Assembly (NCBI GenBank): GCA_009692205.1 | Contig: SHZR01000014.1 | Location: forward strand, 1 to 64,000 | Direction: 5' to 3' | Length of the DNA stretch: 64,000 bases | Source: Gemmatimonadota bacterium | Lineage (GTDB): Bacteria; Gemmatimonadota; Gemmatimonadetes; Longimicrobiales; Gaopeijiaceae | Shown: positions 3,609 to 11,550 of the stretch, piece by piece | How positions within the stretch are numbered: the stretch's first letter is position 1 | Layout of the letters: each line of letters starts with the position of its first letter | Position numbers and translations under genes: made by a program | Notes under the pieces: generated by a model | Seen by the model: the letters and a program-made list of their open reading frames with translations, nothing else | Told to the model about the DNA's origin: nothing | The model's database searches: none

Positions 3609-4334
3609 TCACGCCGTGGGATCGAACGTATACCCCAGGTAGGTGAGCAGCAGGATGTACGCGCGCGCGCCGAAGGTGAGGTAGGTCCACAACTTGCTCG
3701 GGCGCGCATCCGCGCTCTTCGGCCGATCCAGGAACGGCACGCACAGCAGCACGAGCCCCACCAGGCCGAATGCCGCGATCCCGATCACGTCACCCTCCAC
3801 GCCGAGGATGGGCGCGGGCGCGAACGCGTCGGCCTTCTCGCCTAGGTGCGCTGGGACGAACGCGGCCGCAGCGGCGGCCGGCGCGAACCTGTGCAGCCCG
3901 GGGGCGTGACACGTGACGCACTGGACCTCGGCGAGCGCCGAGGAGTCGGACATGAGATGGACCTGGTGCCCCTGCGTGGCCGCAATCGCCTCCCAGCTCT
4001 CGCTGGCATCCTCCTGGATGTGGCAGCGCGCGCAGACTTCCGTCGCCGCGGGCGCGTGCTCGCCGATCTCCTCGGGACGCTCCGCCACCCATAGGTAGAG
4101 CTGTCTCATGCTGGCGGTGAGGGGCTGGTTGTGGCAGTCGTGGCACTCGAGCTGATTGTGCTCGCTCTCGGTGAACTTCACGAACGCCGGACCCATCACG
4201 TGGCAGCCCGTGCAGAACCCGTTGTCGTGCTGCACGTAGTTCCAGCCCATGAAGCCGGCAGTGCCGACGACGATCACGAACGCGGCACCGACGCCCCCCG
4301 TCCAAGCGTAGACGATGCGCGGGCGCGTCCGCAC
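3609..4334 (-). CDS. Membrane tetraheme cytochrome c (NapC/NrfH-like) with cytochrome-b-type C-terminus
   Basis: A 241-residue protein if the GTG at 4334 is used. An ATG at 4409 would add 25 residues, but it lies inside a strong hairpin and gives an unlikely N-terminus. One membrane helix (AAFVIVVGTAGFMGW) anchors a periplasmic domain with four CxxCH heme sites: CTGCH, CHDCH, CARCH and CVTCH. The first half matches NapC/NrfH quinol-oxidising cytochromes. The C-terminal ~90 residues are unusual: two further helices with IGIAAFGLVGLVLLCVPFLDR, which recalls the last helices of cytochrome b/PetD. It probably passes electrons between quinol and a periplasmic acceptor. No partner reductase is adjacent. 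Confidence 0.85.
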   Translation of the reverse strand: MRTRPRIVYAWTGGVGAAFVIVVGTAGFMGWNYVQHDNGFCTGCHVMGPAFVKFTESEHNQLECHDCHNQPLTASMRQLYLWVAERPEEIGEHAPAATEVCARCHIQEDASESWEAIAATQGHQVHLMSDSSALAEVQCVTCHAPGLHRFAPAAAAAAFVPAHLGEKADAFAPAPILGVEGDVIGIAAFGLVGLVLLCVPFLDRPKSADARPSKLWTYLTFGARAYILLLTYLGYTFDPTA

Positions 4335-4390
4335 CCAAGCGATCAGCGAATAGGAGCAGACCCAACCTCCGGGCCAAGGCCCGCCGGGCT

Positions 4391-4427
4391 CCGGGCGGTG
4401 GGGCAACATGCCCCCCCACCGCTCCGG
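4391..4427. promoter_or_regulatory. Strong GC hairpin between divergent genes
   Basis: The arms GCGGTGGGG (4395-4403) and CCCCACCGC (4414-4422) pair perfectly, and flanking CCGG blocks extend the stem. It lies between the cytochrome gene (minus) and the desaturase gene (plus), so it would sit in a 5' leader or act as an operator rather than a terminator. Confidence 0.5.
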
Positions 4428-4496
4428 GCTTTGCGGGAAGTCGTGTCCCACCAATACTGTGCTGGGTTGGGTCCCGTGATGGGAGGCCTCGAGTCG

Positions 4497-5378
4497 ATGC
4501 TCCGGTACAAAGCTGATCTCAAGACGCTGTTGTGGATGTTGCTCACCACGACGCTGCTGGTGGCGCTCTGGCGGGCCCCCGCGTTTTCCTGGTGGCTCTA
4601 CGCTCCGTTTCTGTATTTCTCGATCGCTGCCTCGATCATGGCGCACAATCACAACCACGTGAGGACGTGGAAGGGCAACTTCCTGAACCACGCCACGGAC
4701 ATGTGGATCACGCTGTTCTACGGCTATCCGCTGTTCGCCTGGATCCCGACACACAACCAGAACCACCACAGGTACAACAACACGAAGCCGGACCACACGC
4801 ACACGTGGAGGTTCTGGGAGGCGAACAGCCTGCTGACCCTATTGGCCTACCCGGCGATCAGCGCGTTCTATCAGCAGCCCGCCATCGGTGGGTACCTGAA
4901 GTCGTTGTATTCGCGCAACCGCTCTCAGTTCTATGTCGGAGTCGCGCAGATCGTGTGCCTCGTCGCCTGGGTCGCCGCGGCGCTCCTCTTGGATTGGCGA
5001 AAGGCGCTCCTCTACGTGGTGATTCCCCAACAGGTCTCACTGATCACGGTGCTCGTCTTCAACTACATCCAGCACGTGCACGCGGACGAAGAAGATGAGT
5101 GGAATCACTCGAGGAACATCACGGGTCCGGTGCTGAACTTCCTCATGTTCAACAACGGCTACCACACGGTGCACCACATCACGCCGGGCCTCCACTGGAG
5201 TCTCACGCCCGCCGAGCATCGCAAGGTCGCGCACAGGATCGATCCGGCTCTGAACGAGCCATCCATACTCTGGTACTTGGTGCGCACGTACTTGCTGGCG
5301 CCGTTCGTGCCTTCTCTGCGGCACGAGTCGATGAGAGTCGCGCGGCAGACACGCGGACGAGAACCCGCCGCTAGCTGA
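4497..5378 (+). CDS. Membrane fatty acid desaturase
   Basis: A 293-residue integral membrane protein. The ATG at 4497 is preceded by GGGAGG at about 11 nt, so I prefer it to the ATG at 4479. Three histidine clusters of the FA_desaturase superfamily are present: HNHNH near residue 50, HNQNHH near residue 88 and HTVHH near residue 225, with an extra H at YIQHVH. These ligate a di-iron centre that inserts double bonds into acyl chains or hydroxylates lipids. Hydrophobic segments follow the N-terminus and lie on both sides of residue 160. The last bases overlap the converging gene at 5371. Confidence 0.87.
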   Translation: MLRYKADLKTLLWMLLTTTLLVALWRAPAFSWWLYAPFLYFSIAASIMAHNHNHVRTWKGNFLNHATDMWITLFYGYPLFAWIPTHNQNHHRYNNTKPDHTHTWRFWEANSLLTLLAYPAISAFYQQPAIGGYLKSLYSRNRSQFYVGVAQIVCLVAWVAAALLLDWRKALLYVVIPQQVSLITVLVFNYIQHVHADEEDEWNHSRNITGPVLNFLMFNNGYHTVHHITPGLHWSLTPAEHRKVAHRIDPALNEPSILWYLVRTYLLAPFVPSLRHESMRVARQTRGREPAAS

Positions 5379-6135
5379 TCGGACGCAGCGTCCACTCCAC
5401 GTTGGCGGGTAGTTCGCCGTCGAACGCGCCGATGTCGAAGCGCATCGGAACGGTCCCCGTCCCCCGCATGGTGCCGGGGCTCAAGGCGAGGGGCAGTCCG
5501 GTCAGGTCGACGTTGATGGACATGGACGGCTGACTGGTCGCGCTGTCGGTGACATTTTGCGCATCCGAGTTCGGGCAGCGAGACGTTATGGTCGTCGTCG
5601 TTTCTGTCGTCTCGGTCGGCTCGGTCGCTCCGGCACCCACCAGGAGATGATGGGTGCGGAGGTCGCCGCTGATCTCCCACCGCACCTGAGCCATTTGTAT
5701 GCCAGGCGAATTGTGGTTCGTGGCGTTCGTCGATCCGGATCCACGCGAGACAATCACGCCGCGCACGCCGTCCTCGCCGATCGCGCAGGCCACGGGACGA
5801 TTGAGTTCCCTTCGGAACTCCGATGTCCCGGAGAAGGTGAGTGGCTGCGCGAGCCCGCGCGGAGACCCGAGCGTCGGCACGAGCTGCCAGGCAGGCCCCA
5901 TCGCGGCGCCCACCGCGGGCGTTCCGTACGTGATCGGCACCGACGCCGTGTACCTCGCCGAGTAGTTCTCCGTCCACGAGCCCATTTCGGAGGTGCCGGA
6001 CTCCGACCCGGATGCGGTCACGACCAATTCGGCGACCCAGCCGTCACCCGCCTCCCAGGGAGCGCTGTTCGTGGCGGTGCCCATCGCCCCTAGCTGCTGG
6101 ATCGCCAACGCGATCTGGTCGGGAGGGACGCCCAT
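5371..6135 (-). pseudogene. Unidentified protein lacking its natural 5' end
   Basis: The open frame (254 residues from ATG 6135) begins inside the broken phosphoribosyltransferase gene in another frame. In-frame codons continue upstream of the ATG (TTAQLQG), up to the point where phosphoribosyltransferase similarity stops. The body is Thr/Ser/Gly-rich (for example TETTETTTTITS), has few charged residues and looks like an exported protein, yet no signal peptide is present. I therefore read it as the 3' part of a secreted-protein gene joined by a deletion to the gene at 6574. No family recognised. Confidence 0.5.
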
Positions 6136-6574
6136 CCCTTGGAGCTGGGCCGTCGTCCACGACGACCACGGTCTTCCCCTCCAGGTCCAGTGGGCCCTGC
6201 TCGTCCCGGTACAGGCGCTCGCGACGTTCGAGCTCGATGCGCTCTCTCTCCACGACGTCGCGCACGATCTCGGTCCCGATGCCTAGCGCCCGCAGGTGGT
6301 CCTCGTTCAGGACCACGACATCGCCCGTCGCGATGGCGCCGAACGCGATCTCGGGCTGCCAGGGCACACCCAGCTTGCGCACGAGCAACACATCCAGCGG
6401 GGCCTCCAACCTCGTCGCCACCTCGTAGCCCACGGGGACACCGCCCCGGGGGAGAGCAAGGACGACGACGTCCTCGCCCGCGACCTCCCGCTCCACCAGG
6501 TCCGCGAGCAGCCTGCCGGCCTCGTGCCGGTCGGTGAAGCGCTCCAGCGCGTCCTTCCGTCTTGCGGCGCTCAC
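6044..6574 (-). pseudogene. Phosphoribosyltransferase, truncated at the PRPP-binding loop
   Basis: From the GTG at 6574 the protein matches COG1926-type phosphoribosyltransferases, which are about 210-230 residues. The N-terminal part reads DVVVLALPRGGVPVGYEVA, then LDVLLVRKLGVPWQPEIAFGAIA, then VVVVDDG. Normally VDDG continues as (L/I)ATGAT, the PRPP loop. Here, from about 6148 on, the frame reads an unrelated Arg/Asp/Gly-rich tail to a stop at 6044. The catalytic loop and the rest of the Rossmann-like fold are missing. The codons after the break belong to the 5371-6135 gene in another frame. Confidence 0.75.
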
Positions 6575-9245: not shown

Positions 9246-10382
9246 GTGTCCTGGCACAGCCTCGAGGTCGACGAGGCTCTGCGCCGGCTCGTGTCCACGC
9301 GCGAAGGCCTCGACGGGCCTGAAGCGGCCCGGCGGCTCGCGTCGTTTGGGCCCAACCGGCTGCACCCACCCACGCCGACCTCGGCGCTCCGCATCCTGGC
9401 CAACCAGTTCGCGAGCCTCGTCGTCCTCCTGCTCCTCGCCGCGGCCGTCGTGTCGGCGCTCCTCGGCGACGTGCTGGAAGCCGAAGCTATAGGCGCGGTC
9501 CTCGCGATCAACACTCTCATGGGCTTCGTGCTCGAACTCCGCGCCCGACGCGCGATGGATGCGCTGCTCCATTACGAGGTGCCCGTCGCCAAGGTGGTGC
9601 GGGCGGGCCGCGTCGAGCAGGTCTCGTCCGATCGACTCGTGCCCGGAGACGTCATCGAGCTCCAAGAGGGCGACCGCGTGCCAGCCGACGCGCGCCTACT
9701 CAGCGCGGCGGAGCTGCGAACGAACGAGGCTCCGCTCACGGGAGAATCGCTTCCAGTCAACAAGACAGCCGCGCCCGTCGGGGACGCCGACGCCTTCCTC
9801 GCCGAGCGCACGTCCATGGTGTACTCGGGCACCGCGGTGTACGTCGGGAGCGCCTCAGCAGTCATCGTCGACACGGGCGCGCAGACCGAGATCGGGCGGA
9901 TCGGGACGCTGGTCGCATCGGTCGAGGCGGGGAAGACGCCGCTCGAGGCGCGCCTCGACGAGCTCGGCCATCGGCTCGTCTGGTTGACGCTCGGCGTCGC
10001 CGCCGTGGTCACGGGGCTCGGCGTCCTCCAGGGCCTGCCCTTCGGGCGCATGATCCAGACCGGCATCGCGCTCGCGATCGCCGCGGTGCCGGAGGGGCTC
10101 CCTGCGGTCGCGACGATCGCGCTCGCAGTCGGGTTCCGCAGAATGGCGCACCGTCACGCGATGGTCCGACGCCTCTCCGCGGTCGAGTCGCTCGGCGCTA
10201 CGACCGTCGTCTGCACCGACAAGACCGGCACCCTGACCGCAGGCGAGATGACGGCCACGATCGTGGTTGGCTCACGCACGACCATGGAGGTCACGGGAAC
10301 GGGGTTCGGCGCCGTTGGTGAGTTTCGGAGGTGGAACCGGCGGCCATGGGCGCAGCCCCTGGAGTCGCCTAGAACGCGCTGA
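9246..10382 (+). pseudogene. Cation-transporting P-type ATPase, C-terminal ~60% missing
   Basis: The first ~355 residues match P2-type calcium/cation ATPases, which are about 900 residues. They include the cation_ATPase_N domain (residues 1-70), two membrane helices near 53-95, the actuator loop with TGES at about 165, membrane helices 3-4 with the PEGLP motif, and the phosphorylation site DKTGTLT at Asp325. Similarity stops around GEFRR (about 10330). The frame then runs out into the end of the converging acyl-CoA dehydrogenase gene. The nucleotide-binding domain and six helices are absent, so it cannot pump. The GTG start is the first after an in-frame stop at 9231. Confidence 0.85.
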
Positions 10383-11550
10383 GCCCCGTGAGCGTCTGGC
10401 CGAGAATCAGCGAGTGCACGTCGTGCGTGCCCTCGTAGGTGTAGACCGACTCCAAGTTCGCCATGTGCCGCATCGACTGGTACTCGATCAAGATGCCATT
10501 GCCGCCGAGCAGGCGGCGCGCCTCGCGTGCGACGTCGGTGGCCATGTCGACGTTGGCGCGTTTGGCGAGCGACACCTGCTGCGGGGTCATCGTGCCCTCG
10601 TCCTTCATGCGGCCGAGCCGGTAGCAGACGAGCTGCGCCTGTGTGATGCTCGTCAGCATATCCGCTAGTCGTACCTGCTGGATCTGCTTCCCGCCGATCG
10701 GCGTGTCGAACATCACCCGCTCCTTGGCATACGAGAGCGCCTCGTGGAAGCACGCCATCGCCGCGCCGACCACGCCCCACGAGATGCCGTAGCGCGCCTG
10801 CGTCAGGCACATGAGCGGGCTCTTCAGCCCCGCCGATTCGGGCAGCACCGCGTCGGCGGGCAGCTCGACGTCCTGGAAGACCAGCTCGCTCGTGTCCGAG
10901 GCGAGCAGCGACAGCTTGCCCTTCTGGTCCTTCGCGCTGAAGCCCGGGATGTCCGTTGGGACCACGAAGCCTCGGATCCCCTTCACGTCGCCGATGTCGC
11001 CGGTCTGGGCCCACACCACCGCGACGTCCGCCATCGAGCCGTTGGTGATCCACATCTTGGCGCCGTTCAGCACCCATCCGTCCGAGGTCTTCTTGGCCGT
11101 GGTGATCATGCCGGCGGGGTTCGAGCCGTAGTCGGGCTCGCTCAGACCGAAGCAGCCGATCGCCTCCCCGGTGGCGAGCTTGGGCAGCCACTCGCGGCGC
11201 TGTGCCTCGCTGCCGAACGCGAAGATCGGGTACATGACCAGCGCGCCCTGCACGGACGCGAACGAGCGGATGCCGGAGTCCCCGCGCTCGAGTTCCTGCA
11301 TGATGAGCCCGTACGACACGTTGTTCAGAGCGGCGCAGCCGTACTCCTCGGGAAGCGTCGCACCCAAGACGCCCAGCTCGCCGAGCTCGGGGATCAGCTC
11401 CTTGGGGAAGCGACGCTCGATGTACGCCTTGCCGATGATCGGCATGACGTTGTCCTCGACCCAGGCGCGGATCGTGTCGCGGATCATGCGCTCCTCGTCG
11501 GAGAGGAGCGAGTCGATGTCGTAGAAGTCGATGCCTTGGAACTTGGCCAT
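10369..11550 (-). CDS. gcdH: Glutaryl-CoA dehydrogenase-like acyl-CoA dehydrogenase
   Basis: A 393-residue flavoprotein of normal length. Residues 20-130 form the helical N-terminal domain with IRSFASVQGALVMYPI, where the Arg and the Ser-Val-Gln segment match the glutaryl-CoA binding site. CFGLSEPDYGSNPAGM marks the FAD-binding domain and YEGTHDVH carries the catalytic Glu near residue 373. The family oxidises and decarboxylates glutaryl-CoA to crotonyl-CoA in lysine and aromatic catabolism, passing electrons to ETF. The gene stands alone. Its 3' end overlaps the truncated P-type ATPase frame by 14 bp. Confidence 0.9.
   Translation of the reverse strand: MAKFQGIDFYDIDSLLSDEERMIRDTIRAWVEDNVMPIIGKAYIERRFPKELIPELGELGVLGATLPEEYGCAALNNVSYGLIMQELERGDSGIRSFASVQGALVMYPIFAFGSEAQRREWLPKLATGEAIGCFGLSEPDYGSNPAGMITTAKKTSDGWVLNGAKMWITNGSMADVAVVWAQTGDIGDVKGIRGFVVPTDIPGFSAKDQKGKLSLLASDTSELVFQDVELPADAVLPESAGLKSPLMCLTQARYGISWGVVGAAMACFHEALSYAKERVMFDTPIGGKQIQQVRLADMLTSITQAQLVCYRLGRMKDEGTMTPQQVSLAKRANVDMATDVAREARRLLGGNGILIEYQSMRHMANLESVYTYEGTHDVHSLILGQTLTGLSAF

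Follow-up and report, generated by a model that had tools for sequence, protein, structure and literature searches.

A chimeric open reading frame joining the front of a multiheme cytochrome to a cytochrome b remnant in a Gemmatimonadota genome

Layout of the chimeric reading frame and its neighborhood

The window analyzed here (64,000 nucleotides of one contig of a Gemmatimonadota bacterium, whose assembly is probably a metagenome-assembled genome) contains a minus-strand open reading frame (ORF) at 3609..4334, the frame and translation of which give 241 amino acids plus stop. The preliminary description had assigned an N-terminal anchor and four CxxCH sites to this ORF, and both were confirmed by a motif scan and a structure model. 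The frame is open across 409 codons, and the 241-aa product runs from a GTG at 4334, the earliest likely start, to the stop codon at 3609–3611; an alternative in-frame ATG lies at about 4409.

The N-terminal half (residues 1–152; 3879..4334, minus strand) consists of the anchor helix and the four-CxxCH front of an NrfH-anchored cytochrome that has 9 to 19 CxxCH motifs in relatives, as counted per frame. The four motifs, all on the minus strand and all invariant in alignment A4, are located at residues 41 (4200..4214), 64 (4131..4145), 101 (4020..4034), and 139 (3906..3920), the first being an NrfH-type first-heme motif (CTGCHxM). At junction 1 (3876..3881, minus strand), within a GCC-rich run, LHRFAP of the multiheme cytochrome is followed by AAAAAAFVPAHLG of cytochrome b; by alignment, the side ending in CVTCHAPGLHRFAP meets the AAAAAAFVPAHLGEKADAFAPAP side. 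The following segment (residues 153–175; 3810..3878, minus strand) corresponds to the end of helix E and the start of the ef loop of cytochrome b, upstream of its PEWY motif. At junction 2 (3807..3812, minus strand), 22 codons were lost in frame compared with relatives, and the AAAAAAFVPAHLGEKADAFAPAP segment meets ILGVEGDVIG in the alignment, adjoining a repeat-like run (CCCGCGCCC). The remainder (residues 176–241; 3612..3809, minus strand) comprises the last two cytochrome b helices and terminates in YTFDPTA, which reads YTFDPNA in a genome of the same genus (G002).

Upstream, homology to the multiheme relatives stops at LIAWVRTRPR (5′ limit LIAW; 4335..4346, minus strand), and the native start and the first, extra N-terminal helix of the larger homologs are absent beyond this limit. 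Directly upstream of the ORF is an imperfect 24-nt inverted repeat with a 10-nt loop (4380..4437, no strand assigned), a long GC-rich hairpin whose loop includes the alternative ATG. The repeats around the junctions revealed no clear mechanism of joining.

Structure prediction, which the preliminary description had proposed, placed the anchor at residues 6–36 and the two tail helices at about residues 180–202 and 214–232. The pLDDT was 67.7 (under 50 at the junction), and the model had no PDB match at E ≤ 0.001; therefore, it supports the helix positions only. An alignment that combined rows covering only the N-half with rows covering only the C-half came out misaligned and was left out of folding.

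The ORF is divergent to a fatty acid desaturase gene (4497..5378, plus strand), as previously described; none of the other four genomes of the genus has this gene, and no partner gene adjoins the chimera. A phosphoribosyltransferase gene (6044..6574, minus strand) breaks off at position 95 of its 158-position profile, ending after VVVVDDG next to an out-of-frame ORF (5371–6135) with no Pfam match. A P-type ATPase gene (9246..10382, plus strand; 378 aa) ends soon after DKTGT and directly abuts an acyl-CoA dehydrogenase gene (10369..11550, minus strand). Since about 20 other genes in the window encode near-complete Pfam domains, truncation is concentrated in the 6–7 kb stretch that includes the chimera.

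Identity and conservation of the two halves

We compared each half with profiles and with homologs. The N-half was 49–51% identical over about 150 aa to multiheme cytochromes (L019/L061 and L020/L065) of three relatives (G014, G016, and G095). It was closer to A-type cytochromes (51–53%) than to the NrfH-anchored cytochrome type of G002 and G040 (40%). Hallmarks of NapC/NrfH were present, namely the N-terminal anchor, the CxxCHxM first heme, and four CxxCH motifs; none of the 24 invariant columns was violated, and NrfH (PDB ID: 2j7a) was the sole solved relative found by sequence. The profile scores were 47.7 bits against a cut-off of 134.2 bits for TIGR03153 (E = 1.5e-12) and 21.5 bits against 24.1 for PF03264, and the tail alone matched Cytochrom_B_C with an E-value of 2.6e-3, below the Pfam cut-off. 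Thus, the profile searches suggested in the preliminary description matched both halves in kind, and both remained under the curated cut-offs. As both N-half cut-offs were missed and the closest relatives were larger multiheme proteins, we rejected a plain NrfH identity: the NapC/NrfH-like designation holds for the features of the N-half, which is nevertheless the first part of a larger multiheme cytochrome rather than NrfH proper. Own-genome searches found no NrfA above the cut-off, and the multiheme matches were weak.

The tail and the G002 cytochrome b shared 58% identity (E = 1e-37), and a profile of tail homologs matched b6f subunit IV (4e-11) and bc1 cytochrome b (2e-9) in the PDB. These sequence comparisons identify the tail as the C-terminal end of a cytochrome b of bc type. 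All cytochrome b relatives in the alignment keep a stretch of about 22 residues containing PEWY, the quinol-site motif of cytochrome b, which the chimera lacks together with the four-helix b6 part and its heme-b ligands. Given the loss of the PEWY segment, the absence of the N-terminal four-helix part, and the 5′ limit of homology, the tail can contain at most two membrane helices. The cytochrome-b character attributed to it previously is therefore correct as homology, but two helices and a stub do not constitute a cytochrome-b module. One of the ten invariant columns of the C-half was violated (E182D), and the last helix contains an arginine (L224R).

The GC3 values of the two halves were 0.91 and 0.90, and relative-rate counts against intact relatives showed that neither half was accelerated. 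These data argue against long neutral drift, and the unaccelerated rates are consistent with a join that is recent, with one that is still constrained, or with an assembly error. The L224R substitution and the PEWY loss occur alongside these rates.

A protein still under constraint could be a miniaturized CymA/NrfH-like quinol dehydrogenase, in which the tail would serve only as a second membrane anchor and electrons would pass from menaquinol to one of the octaheme cytochromes of the genome. Such a function would fit the intact heme sites and CxxCHxM motif, the in-frame joins, the lack of acceleration, and the occurrence of three 8-heme c554-like proteins in the genome; the join also falls on the periplasmic side according to the known topology of cytochrome b, consistent with a three-helix topology. 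We nevertheless consider this function unlikely, because the fusion occurs in no relative, the larger homologs have a native start and a first helix that are gone here, the last helix carries an arginine, no partner gene is adjacent, and the truncated neighbors suggest neutral decay. More specifically, it appears quite improbable that the deletion made a working gene, with a compact four-heme quinol dehydrogenase that reuses a cytochrome-b hairpin as its second anchor and was selected after loss of the bc complex. If the chimera were functional, it would represent a rare instance of a deletion giving rise to a respiratory protein.

The intact cluster of relatives and the remaining genes of the genome

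Relatives carry both halves as two separate intact proteins, and none of 154 further genomes from the order has the two halves fused, so that the tail is not a regular part of NrfH homologs. The parent of the C-half is a cytochrome b of ~373 aa beside a Rieske protein (CTHLDC...CACHNG, as read from the DNA), and the cluster encodes an 8-heme protein, an NrfH-anchored cytochrome, a beta-barrel-like protein, a 16-heme cytochrome, a monoheme protein, two 9-heme cytochromes, the Rieske protein, and cytochrome b. In G002, the parents are encoded on one strand about 8 kb apart, with the NrfH-type 17-heme gene (L050 15954–17546, minus strand) upstream of the cytochrome b gene (L050 8522–10132, minus strand), and the genes for the barrel, 16-heme, monoheme, two 9-heme, and Rieske proteins between them. 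The gene order in G040 (L052) was identical. Because both parents are on the same strand in this order, excision of the intervening genes would yield the outer ends in the order found in the window. In G014, G016, and G095, the A-type cytochrome sits downstream of cytochrome b; since the N-half is closer to this type, we infer rather than read off the ancestral gene order in the lineage of the chimera.

Clusters of this kind were observed at L050 8522–19000 and in L052, L053, L061, L062, L063, and L065, with 8-, 9-, 16-, and 17–19-heme cytochromes. The combination of Rieske/cytochrome b, multiheme cytochromes, and a barrel is a candidate for a system that transfers electrons to the outside of the cell and is coupled to a bc complex. 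We found no published description of the intact cluster among open-licence papers, and we regard it as a more interesting object than the chimera.

The acyl-CoA dehydrogenase of the window served as a synteny anchor: it is 83% identical to that of G040 (L052 13252–14571), which borders the intact cluster, and this suggests that the chimera and the G040 cluster occupy the same chromosomal place. The 6 kb between this gene and the chimera had no counterpart in G040.

Within its own genome (97.9% complete, 1.67% contamination), the chimera stands alone. No match to PF00033 was found anywhere in the genome, and PF00032 gave the weak match of the chimera and one unrelated match, with no second match above chance; a candidate at C48:89759 was rejected as a spermidine-synthase-like membrane protein. 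The Rieske matches in the genome were of kinds other than bc type: C22 encodes a small ferredoxin of the Rieske kind adjacent to SUF genes, and the match on C15 has no bc context. No homolog of the barrel was found in the genome in a search that lacked its own positive control. The searches with the fused protein detected the parent genes in other genomes and the chimera alone in its own, so intact copies would have been recovered here as well. Among the other four members of the genus, one (G002) has the parent genes.

Neither a heme-copper oxidase nor a bd oxidase was found by the searches made in this genome. Two NrfD-type loci (C22:126036–127025 and C27:8539–9510), each having ferredoxin-like partners, resemble alternative complex III, and the 8-heme c554-like cytochromes are encoded at C25:6312, C15:131324–132154, and C52:14639, two of them being mutually close in sequence.

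These results also bear on an assembly artefact, in which the contig would be misjoined at short GC-rich matches with real sequence dropped, while the intact cluster persists in the population. Several truncated or joined genes within 7 kb, the location of junction 1 in a GCC-rich run and of junction 2 beside the CCCGCGCCC repeat-like run, and the absence of acceleration in either half would agree with an artefact. We consider it rather unlikely, as no second cytochrome b or barrel copy occurs on any contig despite the 97.9% completeness, three of the four other genus genomes likewise lack the cluster, and both joins are in frame, for which the chance expectation is about 1/9.

Origin of the chimera and comparison with known systems

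Based on these data, the chimeric ORF is probably the scar of a recent deletion and may still be translated. The ancestor would have carried a bc complex–multiheme cytochrome–barrel cluster on the minus strand, with the NrfH-anchored gene upstream of cytochrome b. Through a deletion of roughly 8–10 kb, the first ~152 codons of the kept part of the multiheme gene and the final ~110 codons of the cytochrome b gene would have come to share one reading frame. The PEWY segment would have disappeared in a second in-frame loss of 66 nt, and the multiheme gene would also have been cut at its 5′ end. This origin is consistent with the presence of both parents in relatives, intact, on one strand, and in matching order, with the absence of the fusion from relatives, and with a tail that equals the G002-type cytochrome b minus exactly the PEWY segment; the truncated neighboring genes, the arginine in the last helix, the acyl-CoA dehydrogenase shared with the flank of the G040 cluster, and the lack of other cytochrome b, bc-type Rieske, and barrel matches in the genome also agree with it. 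The two in-frame joins, the lack of a stop over 241 codons, the intact state of all four CxxCH motifs and 24 invariant N-half columns, the GC3 values, and the unaccelerated rates speak against a scar in that they would fit a maintained gene as well. We found no pre-deletion strain.

If the ORF is translated, its product would cross the membrane with three helices and hold four hemes in a periplasmic domain. Its NrfH-type first heme might still receive electrons from menaquinol, but the protein would have neither heme b nor a Qo site. None of its former partners was found, nor anything that could pass electrons onward. The chimera is therefore most likely without a role and in early decay. The preliminary description had proposed an unusual fused electron-transfer module; this proposal was not supported, since heme-b ligands and PEWY are missing, the halves are the two ends of a cluster of separate genes, and the neighbors are truncated. 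Deletion product is a more fitting description of the chimera than a module designed for electron transfer. As a scar, it would document the loss within a genus of an apparent bc/multiheme/barrel electron-transfer cluster, and it cautions against inferring a new enzyme from a domain fusion seen in one assembled genome.

Compared with known systems, the chimera shares the anchor helix and first four CxxCH motifs with the multiheme NrfH-anchored cytochromes (L061 2421–3689 and L065 3653–5611), whereas these continue with many further CxxCH motifs, several of them having an extra N-terminal helix, and the chimera ends its multiheme part after the fourth. The anchor, CxxCHxM first heme, and four hemes are those of the tetraheme quinol dehydrogenases NrfH, NapC, and CymA (2j7a chain C); however, the family scores of the chimera are below the cut-offs, the likeness is strongest near the first two hemes, and NrfH has no tail. 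The final ~93 residues of the short bc-complex cytochrome b (L050 8522–10132) are 58% identical to the tail when the PEWY gap is counted and 76–77% identical across aligned columns, with the same C-terminus, but the chimera has neither the PEWY segment nor helices A–D, which hold all heme-b ligands, and is missing most of helix E. Fused multiheme-b cytochromes (CbcL, MtoC, and MtrH; 416–1034 aa) combine a multiheme part with a b-type membrane domain (PMC6295460). Although the chimera likewise has a membrane part after a multiheme c part within a single chain, it has 241 aa, its membrane part consists of two residual helices of bc type, and it has no heme b; its length and the bc-type origin of its tail led us to reject a CbcL-like fusion.
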